Positions 3,369-62,165 of a DNA stretch of 64,000 nucleotides are shown in pieces. The translations under genes were made by a program, and so were the position numbers. This DNA comes from Archaeoglobales archaeon. Lineage in GTDB: Archaea > Halobacteriota > Archaeoglobi > Archaeoglobales > Archaeoglobaceae. The number at the start of each line of letters is the position of its first letter. The first letter of the stretch is position 1. The DNA lies in the NCBI GenBank assembly GCA_030055525.1, contig JASFYJ010000003.1, positions 62,001-126,000 of the forward strand. Direction: 5' to 3'. The notes under the pieces are model-generated. The model was not told the DNA's origin. It saw only the letters and a program-made list of their open reading frames with translations, and made no database searches.

Positions 3369-4735
<1,367 letters not shown>

Positions 4736-15367: not shown

Positions 15368-16419
15368 TCTTCGAAGGCAAGGCGAAGATAGAAACGGATG
15401 GGGTATTTTACAATCCAAGAATGAAATTCTGTAGAAATCTCGATATGAAGATCTACGCGGTAATTGATTCAAAAGAATACCTAGACGCACTAGCAGCGAG
15501 TGGAGTTAGAGGGATAAGAGCAAAGATTGAAGCATCTAAGATGTCATCGTTCAACGATGCTAATCCAAAAGCTGTAGAAGTGATAAAAAAGAATCTAAAG
15601 CTTAACGAAATTGATGCTGAAGTCTACAATGAAGATGCAAGCTTACTGATGAGAAGAAAAAAGTTTGAACATATAGATCTCGACCCTTTCGGTTCTCCGG
15701 CGCAGTTCATGGATTCAGCATGTTATTCAGCTAAAAGATTCTTAAGTATCACAGCAACCGATACAGCCGCTCTATGCGGAAGTTCAAAATCTTCAGAGTT
15801 AAGAAAGTATGGCGTTTACGCAATAAAGACGGATGCTTATTGGGAAATCGGATTAAGAGTGCTCATCGGTTTCGTATGCAGAGAAGCAACGAAGTATGAA
15901 AAAGTTGCACTTCCTATAGCTTCTTGGGCAAAAGAACATTACTATCGGGTACATTTCAGGATTAAACGATCTACTTCCCAATCTGCAAAGATATACGAAA
16001 AAATCGGCTTTATATTTTACTGCCCCAGATGCTGTTCGAAATTAGCCTTGCCCTTAGGAGATGTAGCCGAAAGATGTAGCTGCGGCGAAAAATTTTCAGC
16101 CATCGGCCCTTTATGGATTGGAGAGCTGAAAGATGTTGAGGTTATCAAAAAAGCTGTCAAAATTGCCGAACCTTCTGAAATTCAAGAGAAAAAATTTTTA
16201 GAATCTATTTTAAATGAGCTCGATTTACCTACAGCTTACAGCATCTCGCATATTGCAAAAAGACTGCGAATAAGCCCACCCAGCACAGAGAAATTAATAG
16301 AGAAGCTTGAAGAGTTAGGGTATAAGGCCTCACGAACTCATTACTGTGGATTCTGCTTTAAGACCAACGCAGAAATAGAGGAAATCGAAAAGATCATTTA
16401 CCCATTATCCCGAGTATAG
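15364..16419 (+). CDS. trm1: tRNA (guanine26-N2)-dimethyltransferase Trm1
   Basis: Trm1 makes N2,N2-dimethylguanosine at position 26. The Rossmann methyltransferase core is seen as LDALAASGVRGIRAKIE (SAM motif I), and the active-site motif is HIDLDPFGSPAQF. The C-terminal half carries a zinc-type cysteine cluster (CPRCCSK and CSCGEKF). The length of 351 residues is normal for archaeal Trm1. The 3' end overlaps the convergent small basic protein by 26 bases. Confidence 0.95.
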   Translation: MIFEGKAKIETDGVFYNPRMKFCRNLDMKIYAVIDSKEYLDALAASGVRGIRAKIEASKMSSFNDANPKAVEVIKKNLKLNEIDAEVYNEDASLLMRRKKFEHIDLDPFGSPAQFMDSACYSAKRFLSITATDTAALCGSSKSSELRKYGVYAIKTDAYWEIGLRVLIGFVCREATKYEKVALPIASWAKEHYYRVHFRIKRSTSQSAKIYEKIGFIFYCPRCCSKLALPLGDVAERCSCGEKFSAIGPLWIGELKDVEVIKKAVKIAEPSEIQEKKFLESILNELDLPTAYSISHIAKRLRISPPSTEKLIEKLEELGYKASRTHYCGFCFKTNAEIEEIEKIIYPLSRV

Positions 16420-17465: not shown

Positions 17466-17672
17466 ATGATTTTCGAACTTCCAGAAAATTTACGCAAAAC
17501 CGTTGCAGCTCTTTTAAAGCTTGGAGAAGGGACAGCATCAGACGTAGCCAGAGTAACTGGAAGAAGGAGAGCCACAGAAAGCCACTACTTAAACCTTCTA
17601 TTCTCACTGAACTATGTTGGCAAGAAAAAAATTGGAAAAAGAACATATTATTTTTTTAATAAAAAAATTTAA
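17466..17672 (+). CDS. Small winged-helix DNA-binding protein
   Basis: The 68-residue protein is a single wHTH domain. The helices TVAALLKLGEGTASDVARVTG and TESHYLNLLFSLNYVG form the HTH, and KKKIGKRTYYFF forms the wing, similar to ArsR/TrmB-type regulators. No effector domain is present. It diverges from the membrane-protein gene and could regulate it. Confidence 0.7.
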   Translation: MIFELPENLRKTVAALLKLGEGTASDVARVTGRRRATESHYLNLLFSLNYVGKKKIGKRTYYFFNKKI

Positions 17673-18359
17673 AAACAGTTGTTTAATTTTTTATATATAT
17701 CTATTAGGTTAAATGATATATTCTACTAGCTAAATTTTAAAAATATTTTATTTTCTAATCTCATTTTTTTATTCCAAAAATATTGTAATAACTAGTTTTA
17801 GGTTTACCTAAAACTTGCCGACATGGTGGTTCGCCTGTTCCAAAATTTATAAGAATGTAGGCACTTCTGCGAAGCAAAGCTCCACTAACTACAGAATTTA
17901 GCTGAAGTCGTGAAGGAGTATATAAACCCCGAAAAGAGCTAGTACAAAAAATTTGGAATAAAAATCTAAAGTAATTAAATACAAATTTACAATATAGTAA
18001 CTTAAATAACACTAGTAGATTCTAAAAATATATTAAATAATATTATTTTTTTATTTTATGATAAATCTCCAGATATATACTCGGCTAAATAATAGAGATA
18101 CGAATAATAAAAACATACAATTTAAAGAAAAATAATAATTAATTTTATAATTATTACCCTCACGAGAGCAGTAAAAAGTGAGTTATAGACTGAAAAGCTG
18201 AGGAATGTAGTTTATAGTTGAGGGGAGTTTATGAGTTAGAAAAACTGTTCGAGGATAGAGAGGACTTAGTAACGAATAGAGAGATTTTAAAATTGAAATG
18301 TTGCAATGAACTTCGATAAAAACAATCAAATTTCTCGAAGAATAACCAGATTCGCATGA
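17673..18359. other. AT-rich gap with an inverted repeat
   Basis: No supported gene lies in these 690 bases. Most of it is poly-A/T-like. A more GC-balanced island at about 17790-17950 contains a perfect 10-base inverted repeat, AGTTTTAGGT/ACCTAAAACT, with a 2-base loop (17794-17815). Beside it is a leftward frame that reads GTGEPPCRQVLGKPKT. This may be a remnant of a mobile element or a small structured RNA. The position next to tRNA-Asn is compatible with old integration events. Confidence 0.4.
17794..17815. repeat. Perfect 10-base inverted repeat
   Basis: AGTTTTAGGT, then TT, then ACCTAAAACT. The hairpin has a very tight loop and could be a terminator, a regulator site or an insertion-element end. 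Confidence 0.8.
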
Positions 18360-30509: not shown

Positions 30510-30610
30510 GAACTAAAGATCTGAGTGTCCTTTGCTCTCATCAGAGGATTGTACCAGTTATTATAATTCAGTTTCAATCAATATTTGCCTACAGAGCCAT
30601 CACTCATCAC

Positions 30611-30640
30611 ACCCCTCCCCCCTTCATTTCATGTGGAGAT
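30611..30640 (-). other. Origin-recognition-box (ORB)-like element, copy A
   Basis: On the minus strand the element reads ATCTCCACATGAAATGAA followed by GGGGGGAGGGG. This matches the layout of archaeal Orc1/Cdc6 boxes: an imperfect dyad CTCCACxxGAAA, then a G-string. Extended leftward-reading similarity to copy B covers 43 aligned bases with 35 matches (30618-30660). Binding is inferred. Confidence 0.55.
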
Positions 30641-30967
30641 CGTGAAGATGTCTTCTCAGCGATGCCATTAGGCTGAAACTGGCTTTGAAAGTTACTTACA
30701 AATGAATAGATGATAAAAGACAATCTAAAAAAGATTTGTGCTTTATAATACTGGATCTTTCCATTTTAATCGATTAAAGACGTTTTTAAAGTCGATCTGT
30801 CCTTTACAGACGCTATTGATTTTTTAAAATTCTATATTTTTTAAATATTATAAAAAATGCGAAAAAATTTAGGACGTAAACAGTGGCGAAGGTCTTTGGC
30901 CATTAAATCAAACAAAATATGCGGCAAATATAAAAAGGATTAAAAACCTTTATTACGAGTAGAAAAG

Positions 30968-30977
30968 CTTATAAGTA
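30968..30977 (+). promoter_or_regulatory. TATA box of the condensin operon
   Basis: CTTATAAGTA lies about 30 bases before the ATG at 31003. No ribosome-binding site is seen, so the first gene is probably leaderless. Confidence 0.5.
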
Positions 30978-31002
30978 CCTTTAAAATTAGCTTCTTTATA
31001 AA

Positions 31003-31500
31003 ATGATAGACAGAGACTTTATAATCGAGAGGCTTGAAAAGAAGATAGTTGAAAAAGATAAAGAAATTCAGGAGTTGAGAAAAATGGTAGAAATTGCAGA
31101 ATCAAAATCAATTGTCGAACTTGAATCGAAAATTGCCGAACTTAGAAAAGCTGTAGAGAGTGTTGTAAGCGAATTAACTTTCCTGAAGTCTGAAGTTAAA
31201 GAACTAAGAGAGAAAGTTGAACAAAGAAAAACCGACTTGCAATCTACAGGAGTTGTCAAAAAAACTTCAGACCTAAGACTGTACAAGACAGAAAAGAGGA
31301 GAGATATCCAAAGCAAAAACCTTGTTAGCTCAAATCCAAATACCGAAATTTTGGAAGATTATCCAAAGAGGGTAACTAAGAACGAGTCCCCAAAAATTAG
31401 CGAAAGCGATACAGAAAAAAATGATAAAGTAGAGAAAAGAGATGAAAAAAACAAAGAAGAGAAATATTCAGAAGATGAGGACCTGATAGTATGCGATTAG
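31003..31500 (+). CDS. Coiled-coil protein preceding smc
   Basis: The 165-residue protein has a long heptad-rich coiled coil over residues 5-75 (FIIERLEKKIVEKDKEIQEL and continuing). A charged Lys/Glu/Ser-rich disordered part follows, and the protein ends in an acidic tail, EDEDLIVCD. It lies directly before smc (stop codon one base from the smc ATG). I do not recognise a family. The position suggests an SMC-associated or regulatory factor. Confidence 0.75.
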   Translation: MIDRDFIIERLEKKIVEKDKEIQELRKMVEIAESKSIVELESKIAELRKAVESVVSELTFLKSEVKELREKVEQRKTDLQSTGVVKKTSDLRLYKTEKRRDIQSKNLVSSNPNTEILEDYPKRVTKNESPKISESDTEKNDKVEKRDEKNKEEKYSEDEDLIVCD

Positions 31501-31501
31501 A

Positions 31502-34500
31502 ATGTTCATAGAGAGAATAGTGCTAAGAAATTTCAAATCTTTCGGTAAAAAAACGGAAGTGCCACTCTACAAGGGATTCACCGTAATAACAGGTCCGAAC
31601 GGTAGTGGAAAGTCTAACATAGTAGATTCAATACTCTTTTGCCTTGGACTTTCAACTTCAACGAAACAGCTGAGAGCCGATAAACTGACAGACTTGATAC
31701 ACAACGGAAGGAAAGATGTAGAAGTTTCAGTAATATTTAACGACAACAACAACAAGATCGAGATAACAAGAAAAATTAAAACGACCGACAAAAACTACTA
31801 CAGCTACTACTACTTGAACGGAAAACCAAGTAGTTTGGCTGAGATACACAAAACGTTAGAAAAATATGGTATTTACAGTGAGGCGTACAACATAGTAATG
31901 CAGGGAGACGTTACGAGAATTATAGAGATGTCGCCATACCAGAGAAGAAAGATAATCGAGGATATAGCTGGTATATCTGAATTCGATGAAAAAAAAGAAC
32001 AAGCTTTGGGAGAACTTGAAAAAGTTAAAGGAGATATTGAAAAAATAGATGCAATACTTTCTGAAATAGAAAAACAGCTTGAAGTGTTGAGAAGAGATAG
32101 AGACGAAGCTTTAAGATACAAAAATCTTTTGGAGACTAGAAAAGAGCTTGAATACTACTTGAAAGCGCATCGATACTTAGATTTGGAGGGGGAAAAACAA
32201 AAAATTGAGAATGAAATAAAAAAAATTGAACTCGAGAAAGATGCTACTACAGCCAAATTGTCTCAGATAATCTCTCAAGCTTCAGAACTGGCTAAAGAAC
32301 TCGAGAGAATAACAAAGGAGATCTCCAACAAAGGAGATATTAAAATTTTGGAGATAAACTCTAGAATCCTGGAGCTAACCAGTCAATTAGAAACAATCAA
32401 AAAAACAAACTCGATATATCTTGAAGAGATAAAGAGATTTGATTCTGAAAATCTATCTCTACTTGCTGAAATCTCAAACATAAAAGGAGAGTTAGAAAAA
32501 ACTACATCTGAAATCGAAGAAAATAGTATTAAGAGAGTTCAAACGTCTGAAATTCTACACGAGATAGAAAAGAAGCTTGATGCGCTACGGGAAAAAATAG
32601 ATGCTGCAGAGAAAGAGAACAAGGAATTGAAAGAAAACCTGATTAACAAAAAGGAAAAATTAGAAGAATTAAAACAACAGAAGCTCTCTAAATTAAGAGA
32701 AAAAGACAGGTTAGTGGAAACTCTAAGAATGCTTGAATCAGAAATTGATAATTTAAGTTTAGAAATCGAGAAAAACAATCTGAAAAAATATGAGTTGGAG
32801 AAAAGAATTTCGGAACTTAAAGGTAGATTGGAAGAACTTGATACAACGTACAAAAATCTTCAGAACAAATTCTCTGAAGTTGATAAGAGACTTTTTTCGG
32901 TAAGATCTTCAATTTCAGATTTAGAAGAGGAACTTAAAAATTCAGAAATAGAGTTGGCCAAAATTAGGGCGAGACTTTCCACCCTGCAAACTTTTTCTAA
33001 ATCGGTTGAGGCGATACTTGAAGCCAAAAGAAGGGGAGATTTGTTAGGGATATATGGCACCGTGGCCCAACTTGGCGAAGTGAGCCAAGAACACGTGAAT
33101 GCTATAGAAGCTGCTGCTGGTAGCGCTCTACAGTACATAGTTGTAGAGAATGAAGATGTTGCTGTTGAGGCAATCAAGTACTTGAAAGCTATAAAAGCTG
33201 GAAGAGCAAGTTTTTTACCGTTAAGAAGGATAAAGGAATACAATCTAAAACTAGATAAATCTATCCTTAACGAGAAAGGGGTTATAGGTTACGCTGTAAA
33301 CCTTGTAAATTGTGAAAAAACTTTTAGACCAGTTTTTGAGTTTATCCTACGCGACACTCTTGTGGTTGATACTGTAGATACTGCAAGAAGGTTGATGGAT
33401 AAAGGGTACAGGATAGTTACGCTGGATGGAGATCTGGTTGAAAGGAGTGGATTGATGACAGGCGGTAGTAGTGAAAGAAGAAATCTTCTCATATCTAAAG
33501 AAATCCTTGAAAACGAAAGAGAACTCGAAAATAAAGTTATAGAGCTCCAAAGAAAACGTGAAGATCTTTTAAAAGAACTTAACAAACTTGAAAGCATCAG
33601 AAAAGAATATAGAAACAATCTTGAAGATTTAAAACAGAAGATCTCTGACATACTGAAGGATATCGAGTTAGAAAAGCAAAAAATGGTCGAGAATACGGAA
33701 AGAATTGAACAAATAAAAGTTAAAATTTTGGAGAAGAACAAAGATAGAGAGGAGAAGCTAAAAATTCTCAAAAATATAGAAAACGAGATATCTCAACTGG
33801 ATGAGTTGATTGCAGCTTACAAGAAAGACATCGAAGTTGTTGAAAAGAAGCTTGGGAAAGTAGAGGTTAGCAGACTCCTCTTCGAGGCAGATAATTTGAG
33901 GTCGGAAAGTATAAAATATCGCGAAATCCTTATATCTATTGAAAAAAAGCTTGAGGCTCTTGAGTTCAAAAAAACTCAACTTGAAAAAAGCTTGAACGAT
34001 CGTAAAAAGAAATTAGCTGAAAATAGCGGTAAGGTTGAAGAGTTCAAACTGAAGATCGATAGCAACGAAAAGAGTAAAGAGAGAATTAAAAAAGAGCTAG
34101 AAAGACTTAGAGAGGAGGAAAAAGGATTACATTCTGAAATTTCGAAACTTAGAGAGGTTAGAGATAGCATATTAAGCAAAATGAAGGGATTGGAGGAAGA
34201 GAAAGCTAGTTTAGAGAAAGAAGTCGAAAAACTTGAAAACAAATTTATCTTATATCGTGAAAAGCTAGAAAAAGTCATCACTGAACTCAAAAACTTCGAA
34301 GGTATTGTAGTTCCGGAAAAGATTCCAGAAAGAGAGATTATTGAAAAAGAGTACTCAAATGTACTATCAGAACTTGAAAAGTTTGGCGACGTTAATTTAA
34401 AAGCAATTCAAGAGTATGAAGACGTTTGGAGGAGAAGAGAGGAGCTAATAAATAAAAGGAGCATTTTAGAGAGAGAAAGAGAGGATATAATTAGAAAAAT

Positions 34501-34972
34501 CAATGAGTATGAGCAGAAAAAGAGAGAAGTCTTTTACGAAGTATTCAACGCTGTTAGGAGAAATTTCATTGAAATAATAAGAGAAATAACAAACGGTGAG
34601 GGAGATATATATCTCGATTCCGATGACCCCTTCTCCAGCGGTTTACATATAAAGGTAAAACCCAACAATAAACCGGTTCAAAAACTTGAATCCATGAGCG
34701 GAGGGGAAAAAAGTTTGGTGGCGTTGGCCTTAATATTTGCCATCCAGATGTACAGACCCGCTCCTTTTTACGCTTTCGATGAGGTAGACATGTTTTTAGA
34801 TGGTGTAAACGTTGGCAGAGTCGCGAAAATGATAAAGAAGATGTCAAAGGAGGCCCAGTTTATAGTGATATCTCTAAGAAAACCCATGCTCGAAAACGCT
34901 GATGCTATCGTAGGTGTTACAATGGGAGGTGACAATTCATCGATAGTGACTGGAATAAAACTCGTGACTTAG
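31502..34972 (+). CDS. smc: Chromosome segregation ATPase SMC
   Basis: SMC is the DNA-loop-extruding core of condensin. The 1156-residue protein has Walker A GPNGSGKSN (about 30-38), an N-terminal coiled coil, a hinge domain (about 505-665, including TGGSSERRN), a second coiled coil, the signature LESMSGGEKSL (about 1060) and Walker B YAFDEVDMFLDG (about 1090). Full-length and intact. scpA follows within 30 bases. Confidence 0.97.
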   Translation: MFIERIVLRNFKSFGKKTEVPLYKGFTVITGPNGSGKSNIVDSILFCLGLSTSTKQLRADKLTDLIHNGRKDVEVSVIFNDNNNKIEITRKIKTTDKNYYSYYYLNGKPSSLAEIHKTLEKYGIYSEAYNIVMQGDVTRIIEMSPYQRRKIIEDIAGISEFDEKKEQALGELEKVKGDIEKIDAILSEIEKQLEVLRRDRDEALRYKNLLETRKELEYYLKAHRYLDLEGEKQKIENEIKKIELEKDATTAKLSQIISQASELAKELERITKEISNKGDIKILEINSRILELTSQLETIKKTNSIYLEEIKRFDSENLSLLAEISNIKGELEKTTSEIEENSIKRVQTSEILHEIEKKLDALREKIDAAEKENKELKENLINKKEKLEELKQQKLSKLREKDRLVETLRMLESEIDNLSLEIEKNNLKKYELEKRISELKGRLEELDTTYKNLQNKFSEVDKRLFSVRSSISDLEEELKNSEIELAKIRARLSTLQTFSKSVEAILEAKRRGDLLGIYGTVAQLGEVSQEHVNAIEAAAGSALQYIVVENEDVAVEAIKYLKAIKAGRASFLPLRRIKEYNLKLDKSILNEKGVIGYAVNLVNCEKTFRPVFEFILRDTLVVDTVDTARRLMDKGYRIVTLDGDLVERSGLMTGGSSERRNLLISKEILENERELENKVIELQRKREDLLKELNKLESIRKEYRNNLEDLKQKISDILKDIELEKQKMVENTERIEQIKVKILEKNKDREEKLKILKNIENEISQLDELIAAYKKDIEVVEKKLGKVEVSRLLFEADNLRSESIKYREILISIEKKLEALEFKKTQLEKSLNDRKKKLAENSGKVEEFKLKIDSNEKSKERIKKELERLREEEKGLHSEISKLREVRDSILSKMKGLEEEKASLEKEVEKLENKFILYREKLEKVITELKNFEGIVVPEKIPEREIIEKEYSNVLSELEKFGDVNLKAIQEYEDVWRRREELINKRSILEREREDIIRKINEYEQKKREVFYEVFNAVRRNFIEIIREITNGEGDIYLDSDDPFSSGLHIKVKPNNKPVQKLESMSGGEKSLVALALIFAIQMYRPAPFYAFDEVDMFLDGVNVGRVAKMIKKMSKEAQFIVISLRKPMLENADAIVGVTMGGDNSSIVTGIKLVT

Positions 34973-34998
34973 AAGACCCGATAGAGGTACTCATAGAG

Positions 34999-35676
34999 AT
35001 GGCAAAAGCTGGAGAAATAGATCCTTGGAGTGTAGATATTATTGACGTCACAGATAAATTTTTAAGAAAGCTTGAAGAAGCGAAAAAAATGGATCTTCGA
35101 ATTTCTGGAAGGGTATTGTTGTATGCAGCAATACTTGTTAGAATGAAGTCTGAAGCAATACTTTTGGAGATAACTAGAAACCAAGAAGTAAAGGATGATT
35201 TAGAAGCTGAATTAGATAAAAACTTTTTAGTTGAAAATGATTTTCAAACATCAGAGTTCACTTCAAGTGAGTTCTTAATCGATGATGTAGATGAATTTGC
35301 AAGGGGGGTTTTGGAAGTTAGAAAGGCTGTGAGAAAGATAGTAACTCTTAGAGATTTGATCGAAGAACTTAAGAAAGCGGAAGAGATTGAAAACAGGAGA
35401 AAAAAGAGAAAGAAAGTGAAAAAAGAGACTTTAGAGGAACCGTTACAGTATCCCCATCCAGAAAGTATGGAAGAGACGATTACAAAAGTTGAGACTGAGA
35501 TAAACAAGATCCTTTCGAGAGTGGGTTTTACGACTTTGTTCTCTATTGTTAATACGAAAGAAACTGATAAACTCGTGGATTACTATGTTTCAGTGCTTTA
35601 TCTTTGCTTTAGAAGGAAGATAAACATAAAACAGGAGAAAATATTCGAAAGTGACATAGAAATATCTCGAGCTTAA
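34999..35676 (+). CDS. scpA: Kleisin ScpA
   Basis: ScpA bridges the SMC heads. The 225-residue protein shows the N-terminal kleisin helix set (EIDPWSVDIIDVTDKFLRKL then RISGRVLLYAAILVRMKSEA) and a C-terminal winged helix (YYVSVLYLCFRRKINIKQEK). The conserved DPIEVLIE segment is encoded just upstream of the first ATG in the same frame and overlaps the smc 3' end. The true start may therefore be a non-ATG codon between 34933 and 34998. Confidence 0.9.
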   Translation: MAKAGEIDPWSVDIIDVTDKFLRKLEEAKKMDLRISGRVLLYAAILVRMKSEAILLEITRNQEVKDDLEAELDKNFLVENDFQTSEFTSSEFLIDDVDEFARGVLEVRKAVRKIVTLRDLIEELKKAEEIENRRKKRKKVKKETLEEPLQYPHPESMEETITKVETEINKILSRVGFTTLFSIVNTKETDKLVDYYVSVLYLCFRRKINIKQEKIFESDIEISRA

Positions 35677-35887
35677 TCTTAAGAATTTTAGATTCTTTTA
35701 GGCAGCTAAAGGGGAACAGTAGTAAAGATGTGGTTTTTTATCGTTCAGAAAAGTTATTTTTAACCTTTTTAGCTATACTTGCTAGCTAGAAGTTACTATT
35801 TATATATAAAAAATATATTTCTAATTTAAATGCAAAAATAGAAGTGTTAGCTATTACAGGTAAAAATCTTCGAAGCTCCCTTGCGAA

Positions 35888-36136
35888 TTGTTTCGAGAAC
35901 TTGGAGACCTAATTGAAAAACTAGCCAAATTTATAAAATTCAGCAACGCAGATTCGGTATCAGTTGTAGAGGATTTTAGAGCGATAACTAGCTGGAATTT
36001 GAAGATCTTCGATCTCGTTTTTGATTACATTCTCCCCTCTCTGGAGCTAAGCATTAAAATAAGTTTGGTATCTGAAAAATGCAGTCGAATCTCAATGCTT
36101 TTACTTTTATATGAGCTTAGCTCAGAAGTTTTTTGA
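35888..36136 (+). CDS. Hypothetical small protein between scpA and scpB
   Basis: An 82-residue frame starts at a TTG (35888) with TATA-like sequence (TATATATAAAAA) about 75 bases upstream. It is mostly helical (FRELGDLIEKLAKFIKF; LSIKISLVSEKCSRISMLLLL). There is no recognisable family or good ribosome site. It fills the gap between scpA and scpB on the same strand, so it may be a small condensin-linked gene, or it may be noncoding. Confidence 0.35.
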   Translation: MFRELGDLIEKLAKFIKFSNADSVSVVEDFRAITSWNLKIFDLVFDYILPSLELSIKISLVSEKCSRISMLLLLYELSSEVF

Positions 36137-36172
36137 CCCGATTATTTTAAATCTCGACTACTTAATTTTTTT

Positions 36173-36691
36173 ATGAATCTCAAGCTGGTTGTAGAAGCGA
36201 TTCTCTTCTCTTCTCCTGACCCTGTATCGATTTCAGATTTGTGTAGAATTACCAAATCCAGTAGGGAAGAGGTAGAAAAAGCTGTATCGGAGCTTTCAAG
36301 ATCTTACTCAGAAAGGGAAAGTTCTATAGAGATAATAAAACTTGGTGAAGGTTATCTAATGAGAGTGAAACCCGATTTCTATTCTTACATAAGTAGTTTA
36401 TCGGAGAGGGGGCTTGATAGAGGTACTATCAGAACTTTGGCTGTAATTGCAGCCAAACAGCCTATAACTCTTTCGAGACTAGCTAAGATAAGGGGAAACA
36501 AATGTTACGAGCATGTAAAAAAATTAAAAAAGCTTGGATTGATAAGTAGCGAAAGAAAGGGACGTTCAACTATATTAAAAACTACGGAAGCGTTTTTATC
36601 TTATTTTGGAGTTGATTCGAGCAGTTTAAATGATTTTAGGATACTTTTAAAAGAATTTGATGGGCAAAATGAAGTTGAAAAACAGAGTTGA
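36173..36691 (+). CDS. scpB: Condensin subunit ScpB
   Basis: ScpB binds the ScpA kleisin. The 172-residue protein consists of two winged-helix domains: NLKLVVEAILFSSPDPVSIS at the start, and TIRTLAVIAAKQPITLSRLAKIRG in the second, both family hallmarks. It completes the condensin set after smc and scpA. Confidence 0.92.
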   Translation: MNLKLVVEAILFSSPDPVSISDLCRITKSSREEVEKAVSELSRSYSERESSIEIIKLGEGYLMRVKPDFYSYISSLSERGLDRGTIRTLAVIAAKQPITLSRLAKIRGNKCYEHVKKLKKLGLISSERKGRSTILKTTEAFLSYFGVDSSSLNDFRILLKEFDGQNEVEKQS

Positions 36692-36855
36692 GTTTTAGGT
36701 TTTTAACGATCCAGTGTTTTTCTACATCTCTATTTTGGATCATCATTTCAACTTTTTTAAAATCAATCGAACTTCTCAAAAAATCAGAGATTTGGACTTA
36801 TTTTTATTATTTCGCTAATCTCTTCACTTCTGTCTCTATTAAAAACCGATAAAAT

Positions 36856-36877
36856 CAATTTCAATCTTTTGAAATTG
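36856..36877. repeat. Inverted repeat beside the ORB-like element
   Basis: CAATTTCA, a 6-base loop and TGAAATTG form a perfect 8-base stem about 20 bases before ORB-like copy B. It could be a terminator after scpB or part of an origin structure. Confidence 0.7.
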
Positions 36878-36896
36878 CTGAAAAGGCCTTTCTACT

Positions 36897-36926
36897 ATCT
36901 CCACAGGAAATGAAGGGGGAGGGGGG
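36897..36926 (+). other. Origin-recognition-box (ORB)-like element, copy B
   Basis: ATCTCCACAGGAAATGAA is followed by GGGGGAGGGGGG on the plus strand. It is the inverted counterpart of copy A at 30611-30640. Similarity continues upstream to GCTGA at 36877. The two copies point outward from the condensin operon. Confidence 0.55.
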
Positions 36927-37380
36927 TGAGTAGTGCTGAAGACGTTTCTAGAGAAGAATAAAGATGTTCACTCTTATAGAACAATGCGGGTTTAGAGGGT
37001 GGAAAAGTGCATTTTTGGCAAACTATGCTGGTAATAAAGTAAGAAGGACCAGTTATTTGAGGAGATTACATTTATGGAATTGTAAAATTGTTGAAAAAGG
37101 TAAGGTTTTGATTATGAGTAATTTTACTAGCTTTTTTAGAAGAACTCCAAGATGCGGGCATCCTAAAACCTGAGACGCTAAACAATGCGGCAACGAGTTG
37201 CTACTACTGAACTTTAAAATATGGTGATAAAGGGAAGCTTTTAAATTGGAGCCTCAGTTCAGATATCTAGTACAGTCAACGATTCGCCTTTATACTCTTT
37301 TGGACTTCATGAGCGTTCTTGGGAACGATCAAAGATTCAATTGAAGGCGTAAAATTGGATTTATAAATTTCTGGAATTAA

Positions 37381-61748: not shown

Positions 61749-62165
61749 ATGCAATCCAAAGAGAAGTACCTATTGGTTGGAGTAATCGTTTTTGCACTTG
61801 TAGCACTCGCAGTCTTTGGAAATTATTCAGATTTCGATAGATCTAGATGGAAGAGTTACGAGGAAGGTTTAATACTAGCTGAGCAGAGTGGGAAAGAGGT
61901 TTTTATCTTTGTATCTTCCAAAACTTGTCCAACGTGTAGCGAGTTCAAGAGGTACTTTACGAACGAAGTAATGAGAAAACTTGAGGAAAGATATGTTCCA
62001 GTATTTTTGGAATATCCGAAGGATTCTTTGGACATGCTGCCGAAGAAAGTGACATCTTTTCCGACATTTTGCGTTGGACATGTAGGTAATATAAGCTGCC
62101 GTGAGATTTCATCGATTCGTGAATTGATGGACATGCTTGAGGTGGAGTATTGGCCAAAAGTTTAA
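61749..62165 (+). CDS. Membrane-anchored thioredoxin-like protein
   Basis: One N-terminal membrane helix (residues 7-24) is followed by a thioredoxin fold with the redox pair in SSKTCPTCSEFKRYF. The cis-proline is in VTSFPTFCV, and there is an extra Cys pair (FCVGHVGNISC). It is probably extracytoplasmic disulfide or haem-maturation chemistry. It lies 25 bases before queC on the same strand. Confidence 0.8.
   Translation: MQSKEKYLLVGVIVFALVALAVFGNYSDFDRSRWKSYEEGLILAEQSGKEVFIFVSSKTCPTCSEFKRYFTNEVMRKLEERYVPVFLEYPKDSLDMLPKKVTSFPTFCVGHVGNISCREISSIRELMDMLEVEYWPKV

Follow-up and report, generated by a model that had tools for sequence, protein, structure and literature searches.

Outward-facing origin recognition boxes around a condensin operon: a probable replication origin in an Archaeoglobales archaeon

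Origins of replication in archaea are commonly organized around origin recognition boxes (ORBs), the sites of the Orc1/Cdc6 initiators, which are set in opposite polarity on either side of an unwinding element (PMC6742236; PMC12141716). Each box associates a dyad with a run of guanines, and in haloarchaea this G-string is extended (PMC3936714). For oriC1 of Haloarcula hispanica, a figure legend gives site I a C-run and site II a G-run (PMC3936714); taking site I as the left one, which is our own reading of the legend, the two G-strings point outward. Closer to the organism of interest here, Archaeoglobus fulgidus is reported to have a single origin, mapped by marker frequency (as cited in PMC4010727 and PMC5333045). 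We now describe a locus of another member of the Archaeoglobaceae, an Archaeoglobales archaeon (assembly GCA_030055525.1), where two ORB-like boxes bracket the genes of the SMC-ScpAB condensin. It lies in a stretch of 64,000 nucleotides, positions 62,001 to 126,000 of contig JASFYJ010000003.1, which we name the window and to which coordinates refer unless another contig or genome is named.

The two boxes turn their backs on each other. The first-pass annotation of this DNA had claimed 35 matches over 43 bases between the minus strand at 30660–30618 and the plus strand at 36877–36919, and a recount on the sequence gives the same figure. Within this alignment the core ATCTCCACANGAAATGAAGGGGG is found without mismatch at 30618–30640 (minus strand) and at 36897–36919 (plus strand), so that the boxes are 6.3 kb apart. 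The left one, ATCTCCACATGAAATGAAGGGGG, points left and the right one, ATCTCCACAGGAAATGAAGGGGG, points right, both outward. Each is prolonged by an extended G-string: GAGGGGTGTGATGAGT at 30602–30617 on the minus strand, which resembles the haloarchaeal one, and its counterpart AGGGGGGTGAGTAGTG at 36920–36935 on the plus strand. No inverted repeat of the region is longer than the one that includes both boxes, an imperfect repeat with arms of 75 nt at 30612–30686 (minus) and 36851–36925 (plus) that are 73% complementary. With up to three mismatches allowed, the core matches exactly twice in the window, while shuffled sequences lead to an expectation of 0.01, and the whole 1.56-Mb genome yields the same two sites and no third; the dozens of scattered copies that would have spoken against an origin are not there. 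A search for plasmid relatives of the box region returned none, and an Rfam search of 30–38 kb found no match to an RNA element.

The reading of these boxes as archaeal ORBs, first proposed because of their dyad and G-string, is supported by comparison with published motifs. The ‘Common’ archaeal motif of DoriC, TCCA[CG]T[TG]GAAA[TC][GA]AAGGGGT (PMC4164010), is a general one, not derived from Archaeoglobaceae; the consensus of Pelve, as quoted in PMC4153887, is closely similar. Both boxes agree with the DoriC motif at 18 of its 20 positions. They rank first and second when the genome is searched with it (two mismatches each, the next two sites having three), and among 120 simulated strands of 400 kb, two attained a score of at least 18. 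In the form typical of Archaeoglobaceae, YTCCACAGGAAAYRAAGGGG, the centre of the dyad is CA, where the consensus has GT. An exact scan with this form was run on the GTDB collection (about 85,000 prokaryote genomes), and counts were made on the 80 records listed: four were bacterial, close to the few expected by chance, and the remainder archaeal. The fetched DNA encoded Orc1/Cdc6 in 25 of the 80, often at 100–200 bp from the box. Finally, a single box lies 120–240 bp upstream of cdc6 in nine Archaeoglobaceae, in the same direction as the gene, and this indirectly ties the box to the Orc1/Cdc6 protein.

Conservation is extensive. At two mismatches or fewer, the box is present in 54 of 55 Archaeoglobaceae genomes. 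At the same threshold, minus and plus boxes that share a contig and are at most about 30 kb apart always face outward: this is the case in 24 genomes, and none has an inward pair. As these genomes share ancestry, they do not stand for 24 independent observations. The spacing varies considerably, from 0.9 kb in G049, of the same genus as our organism, to 30.6 kb in G001, a genome of 2,178,400 bases of the Archaeoglobus-like genus g2, with boxes at 1,399,412 and 1,430,022 around smc. Some relatives have, on each side, two or three boxes that point the same way. In genus g12 (L082–L084) the motif TATATAAAT follows the G-string directly on both outer sides, at all boxes but one, and it is there even when no gene starts at that place.

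The inner side of the boxes is made of DNA that should melt easily. The first-pass annotation had pointed to AT-rich DNA at 30700–30960, which is indeed present: the AT fraction between 30700 and 31000 is 0.60–0.88 per 50 bp. This intergenic stretch is a candidate unwinding element, and the melting cost of its best 100-bp window (about 30760–30859) stands at the 0.8th percentile for the 64 kb. A second candidate, also intergenic, comes inside the right box at 36692–36876, with an AT fraction of 0.68–0.74 over 36690–36890 and a best 100-bp window (about 36713–36812) at the 1.4th percentile. The easiest-melting DNA of the locus, near 35800, belongs to a third AT-rich stretch, between scpA and scpB (35677–36172), where no convincing gene could be recognized. 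The trend extends to relatives. Over 22 pairs the inner flanks are easier to melt than the outer ones (median percentile of the best window 0.2 versus 4.4, Wilcoxon p = 0.002), and in pairs separated by about 1.5 kb or less a local melting minimum is located between the boxes in seven cases out of seven.

The copy number of the boxes, their outward pairing and the AT-rich DNA that they enclose all support the origin that had been proposed at this place. We think it very likely that the locus is the Orc1/Cdc6-dependent replication origin of the chromosome, and probably its only one. The window was said to hold no cdc6 gene, and a search of the genome places the sole full-length Orc1/Cdc6 on another contig (C11:41268–42341). 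It had also been feared that true ORBs might be found beside cdc6 elsewhere; no box lies near this gene on contig C11. With one full-length initiator and two boxes in a genome that is 98.5% complete (16 contigs), the locus is therefore the best candidate for a sole origin. Several observations weigh against this view. The initiator gene does not adjoin the boxes, adjacency being usual, if neither universal nor defining. The missing DNA may hold a further ORB cluster. A spacing of 6.3 kb, let alone the 30 kb of G001, far exceeds that of the compact origins described, and the candidate unwinding DNA is split into two AT-rich patches with genes in between, instead of forming one compact element. 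The inner excess of AT is partly expected, because inner flanks are more often intergenic. Cumulative GC skew, an expected sign of an origin, has no inflection here or at equivalent sites in a coarse sampling of our contigs and of three complete relatives; local gene-strand effects dominate there, with no global pattern, and as a check it gives no signal either way.

Two boxes may also be one too many. A single box with its own AT-rich DNA could be active, the other being a relic or a separate origin. The presence of an AT-rich inner flank at each box, and that of multiple boxes with one direction on a side in some relatives, would fit. Against this, both boxes have been retained in opposite polarity in nearly every genome, through gene turnover and inversion. 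We hold this scenario, which overlaps with an origin at the locus as one of its sub-cases, to be unlikely, while keeping it in mind. A role away from initiation is a further step down in plausibility: the boxes would bind Orc1/Cdc6 and serve as operators in transcription or titrate the protein, while replication would begin elsewhere. The single boxes upstream of cdc6 in nine relatives are what one would expect of autoregulation, and H. hispanica has ORB clusters with a titrating effect (PMC3936714). Such a role sits badly with the strict outward pairing and the easily melted DNA inside, which is the anatomy of an origin, with boxes that face no gene start in several genomes, and with the lack of any ORB-like site of comparable quality elsewhere in this genome. 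We see it as improbable.

What do the boxes enclose? In the present genome, four genes follow each other on the plus strand, and Pfam confirms the identities first proposed for SMC, ScpA and ScpB. The condensin ATPase gene smc occupies 31502–34972 (PF02463, 6.5e-56; PF06470, 2.4e-32). It is followed by the kleisin gene scpA at 34999–35676 (PF02616, 1.1e-18), the frame of which may start upstream of the listed ATG, then by scpB at 36173–36691 (PF04079, 7.3e-42). Directly upstream of smc, at 31003–31500, a gene that we name coil encodes a coiled-coil-like protein of 165 residues without Pfam hit, which ends with DLIVCD. The enclosed operon is thus coil-smc-scpA, with scpB in addition in our genome. 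The coil protein has a C-terminal [LI]I[VI]CD motif. In most genomes of the family, and in nearly all of those where both genes are found, coil immediately precedes smc, also when smc is not at the origin; the protein is possibly a condensin accessory factor.

What these loci conserve is a pair of boxes facing outward, whatever genes they enclose. The gene smc lies between the boxes, or directly inside them, in our genus (g1), in g2 and in g10, and elsewhere in the other genera, so that an enclosed SMC as a family-wide feature had to be rejected. The condensin noted beside the origin at first pass is indeed enclosed here; the arrangement is restricted to a single clade, probably as a later acquisition. 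A tree built from Cdc6 and SMC separates g1, g2 and g10 from all other genera with a support of 100, so that a single event in one clade is the simplest account of how condensin arrived at the origin. Its persistence there, as outer neighbours changed, is compatible with selection or with simple inheritance. In the other genera, most fetched loci encode a small protein of the SSSCA1 type (PF06677), either between the two boxes or immediately on the inner side of one, often together with UPF0147 (PF03685) and GlyRS; in our genome, SSSCA1 is encoded on contig C8. As a similar layout is found in Methanothrix, with cdc6 just outside the boxes, gene order suggests that SSSCA1/UPF0147 between outward boxes is ancestral. 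In Caldarchaeum (L178, L201), SSSCA1, UPF0147 or both recur beside ORBs and cdc6; there the boxes point inward, not outward.

Within our genus, G049 may have gone the other way. This genome, 99% complete, has no convincing smc, the best match being an 872-aa frame (E 1e-10) that is probably Rad50. The 880 bp between its boxes contain only a remnant coil gene, coding for 74 aa (L087:10105–10329), and very AT-rich DNA. It seems as if smc and scpA had been deleted from between the boxes and the origin itself retained. The enclosed segment has also changed orientation: relative to both flanks it is inverted in G035 when compared with G036, G037 and G039, and in G002 when compared with G001, G004 and G007, hence at least twice between close relatives. 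In G002 (L073), 4307–4649 and 15529–15871 form an inverted repeat of 343 bp, identical at 340 positions, with two boxes per arm, and the 11-kb segment between the arms has the opposite orientation to that of other g2 genomes. Such arms are a natural substrate for recombination. Concerted evolution of the flanks of the boxes was considered as a general rule and rejected: flank similarity exceeds that of shuffled flanks in 4 of 23 genomes (G002, G015, G016 and G023), and by that test our genome is not among them. Several draft contigs (G003:C22, G003:C32, G050:C2 and G024:C210) start or stop very close to a box, at a distance that goes from a few bases to some 50. Repeats could be the cause, or a population in which both orientations of the origin coexist.

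Inverted repeats bracketing a cargo that differs between genera, in a segment that inverts, call to mind the ends of a mobile element that would have carried the condensin operon. We find this very improbable: there is no transposase common to the loci, none was recognized between the boxes of our genome, where an element with terminal inverted repeats would be expected to have one, the boxes stay through speciation while the cargo changes, and they match the ORB motif, the same box being found beside cdc6 in other archaea. As for chance similarity, for which only the shortness of the core could be invoked, it is refuted by the shuffles, by conservation in 54 of 55 genomes and by the archaeal distribution of the box.

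How might such an origin work? The single Orc1/Cdc6 would bind both ORBs, in opposite polarity and with the G-strings facing apart; MCM would be directed to the DNA inside the boxes that melts easily, and two forks would leave the region in both directions. We infer binding, loading and firing from what is known of ORB origins. The boxes of Archaeoglobaceae are not bound to a short unwinding element: they have genes between them, their polarity is kept while these genes change and invert, and in one clade the coil-smc-scpA(-scpB) operon has come in between. Going further, we tentatively picture a split origin, a doubtful but attractive idea, made of two half-origins of opposite polarity, 1–30 kb apart and maintained outward, the genes between them being exchanged or inverted by recombination at the ORBs. 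Condensin, captured in one clade, would be made from the first-replicated DNA, with the highest copy number, and might load there. That condensin gains from this location, via early gene dosage or local loading, is speculative.

In the literature searched, we found no report of an outward pair of ORBs enclosing a condensin operon. The authors of the Geoglobus genome paper did not find an ORB, and for A. fulgidus Ori-Finder 2 obtained 0 true positives out of 1 (PMC4164010), a miss to be expected if the origin of that organism is not beside cdc6. The origin is very probably in a place that published origin-finding methods would not examine. What is new is a probable ORB origin with paired boxes enclosing genes, a condensin operon in this clade. 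The mapping of the A. fulgidus origin by Maisnier-Patin and colleagues in 2002 was reportedly coarse; a whole archaeal family now has origin candidates at the level of the sequence. Since genes fill a wide space between the boxes, one can ask up to what distance two ORBs function as a single origin, and capture of condensin in a single clade, together with one relative without a detectable smc, makes a natural experiment on whether condensin gains from its position. Elsewhere in the window, very AT-rich intergenic DNA near tRNA-Asn (17640–18160) contains a GC-richer island (about 17800–17930), which matches no Rfam family and has weak folding z-scores (−0.6 and −1.7).

We end with a comparison with known systems. 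As in origins of the oriC1 type, from Haloarcula hispanica or Sulfolobus, ORBs with a G-string are set here in opposite polarity, with AT-rich DNA inside (PMC3936714; PMC12141716; PMC6742236), and the G-strings point outward as in H. hispanica. In these origins, however, what lies between the ORBs is a short unwinding region, the initiator gene is adjacent and the centre of the dyad is GT, whereas here an operon of about 6 kb is enclosed, cdc6 is elsewhere and the centre is CA. The Methanomassiliicoccales origin of ‘Ca. M. alvus’ has its ORB1–4 in outward groups about 1.9 kb apart, the inverted ones at one end and the direct ones at the other (PMC4153887, Table 2), but the gene enclosed there is apparently that of the initiator, orc1/cdc6.1, not condensin (PMC4153887). 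In Methanothrix an outward pair also encloses genes, SSSCA1 and UPF0147 in L184 and UPF0147 in L213; in contrast to our locus, cdc6 lies about 100 bp outside the plus box and smc is not enclosed, a layout that is probably close to the ancestral one. With A. fulgidus our organism shares the family and, probably, the single origin. Finally, as in the bacterial ParB-parS system, condensin is associated with the origin, with the difference that in bacteria it is the SMC protein that is loaded near the origin, whereas here it is the smc gene that resides at the candidate origin.

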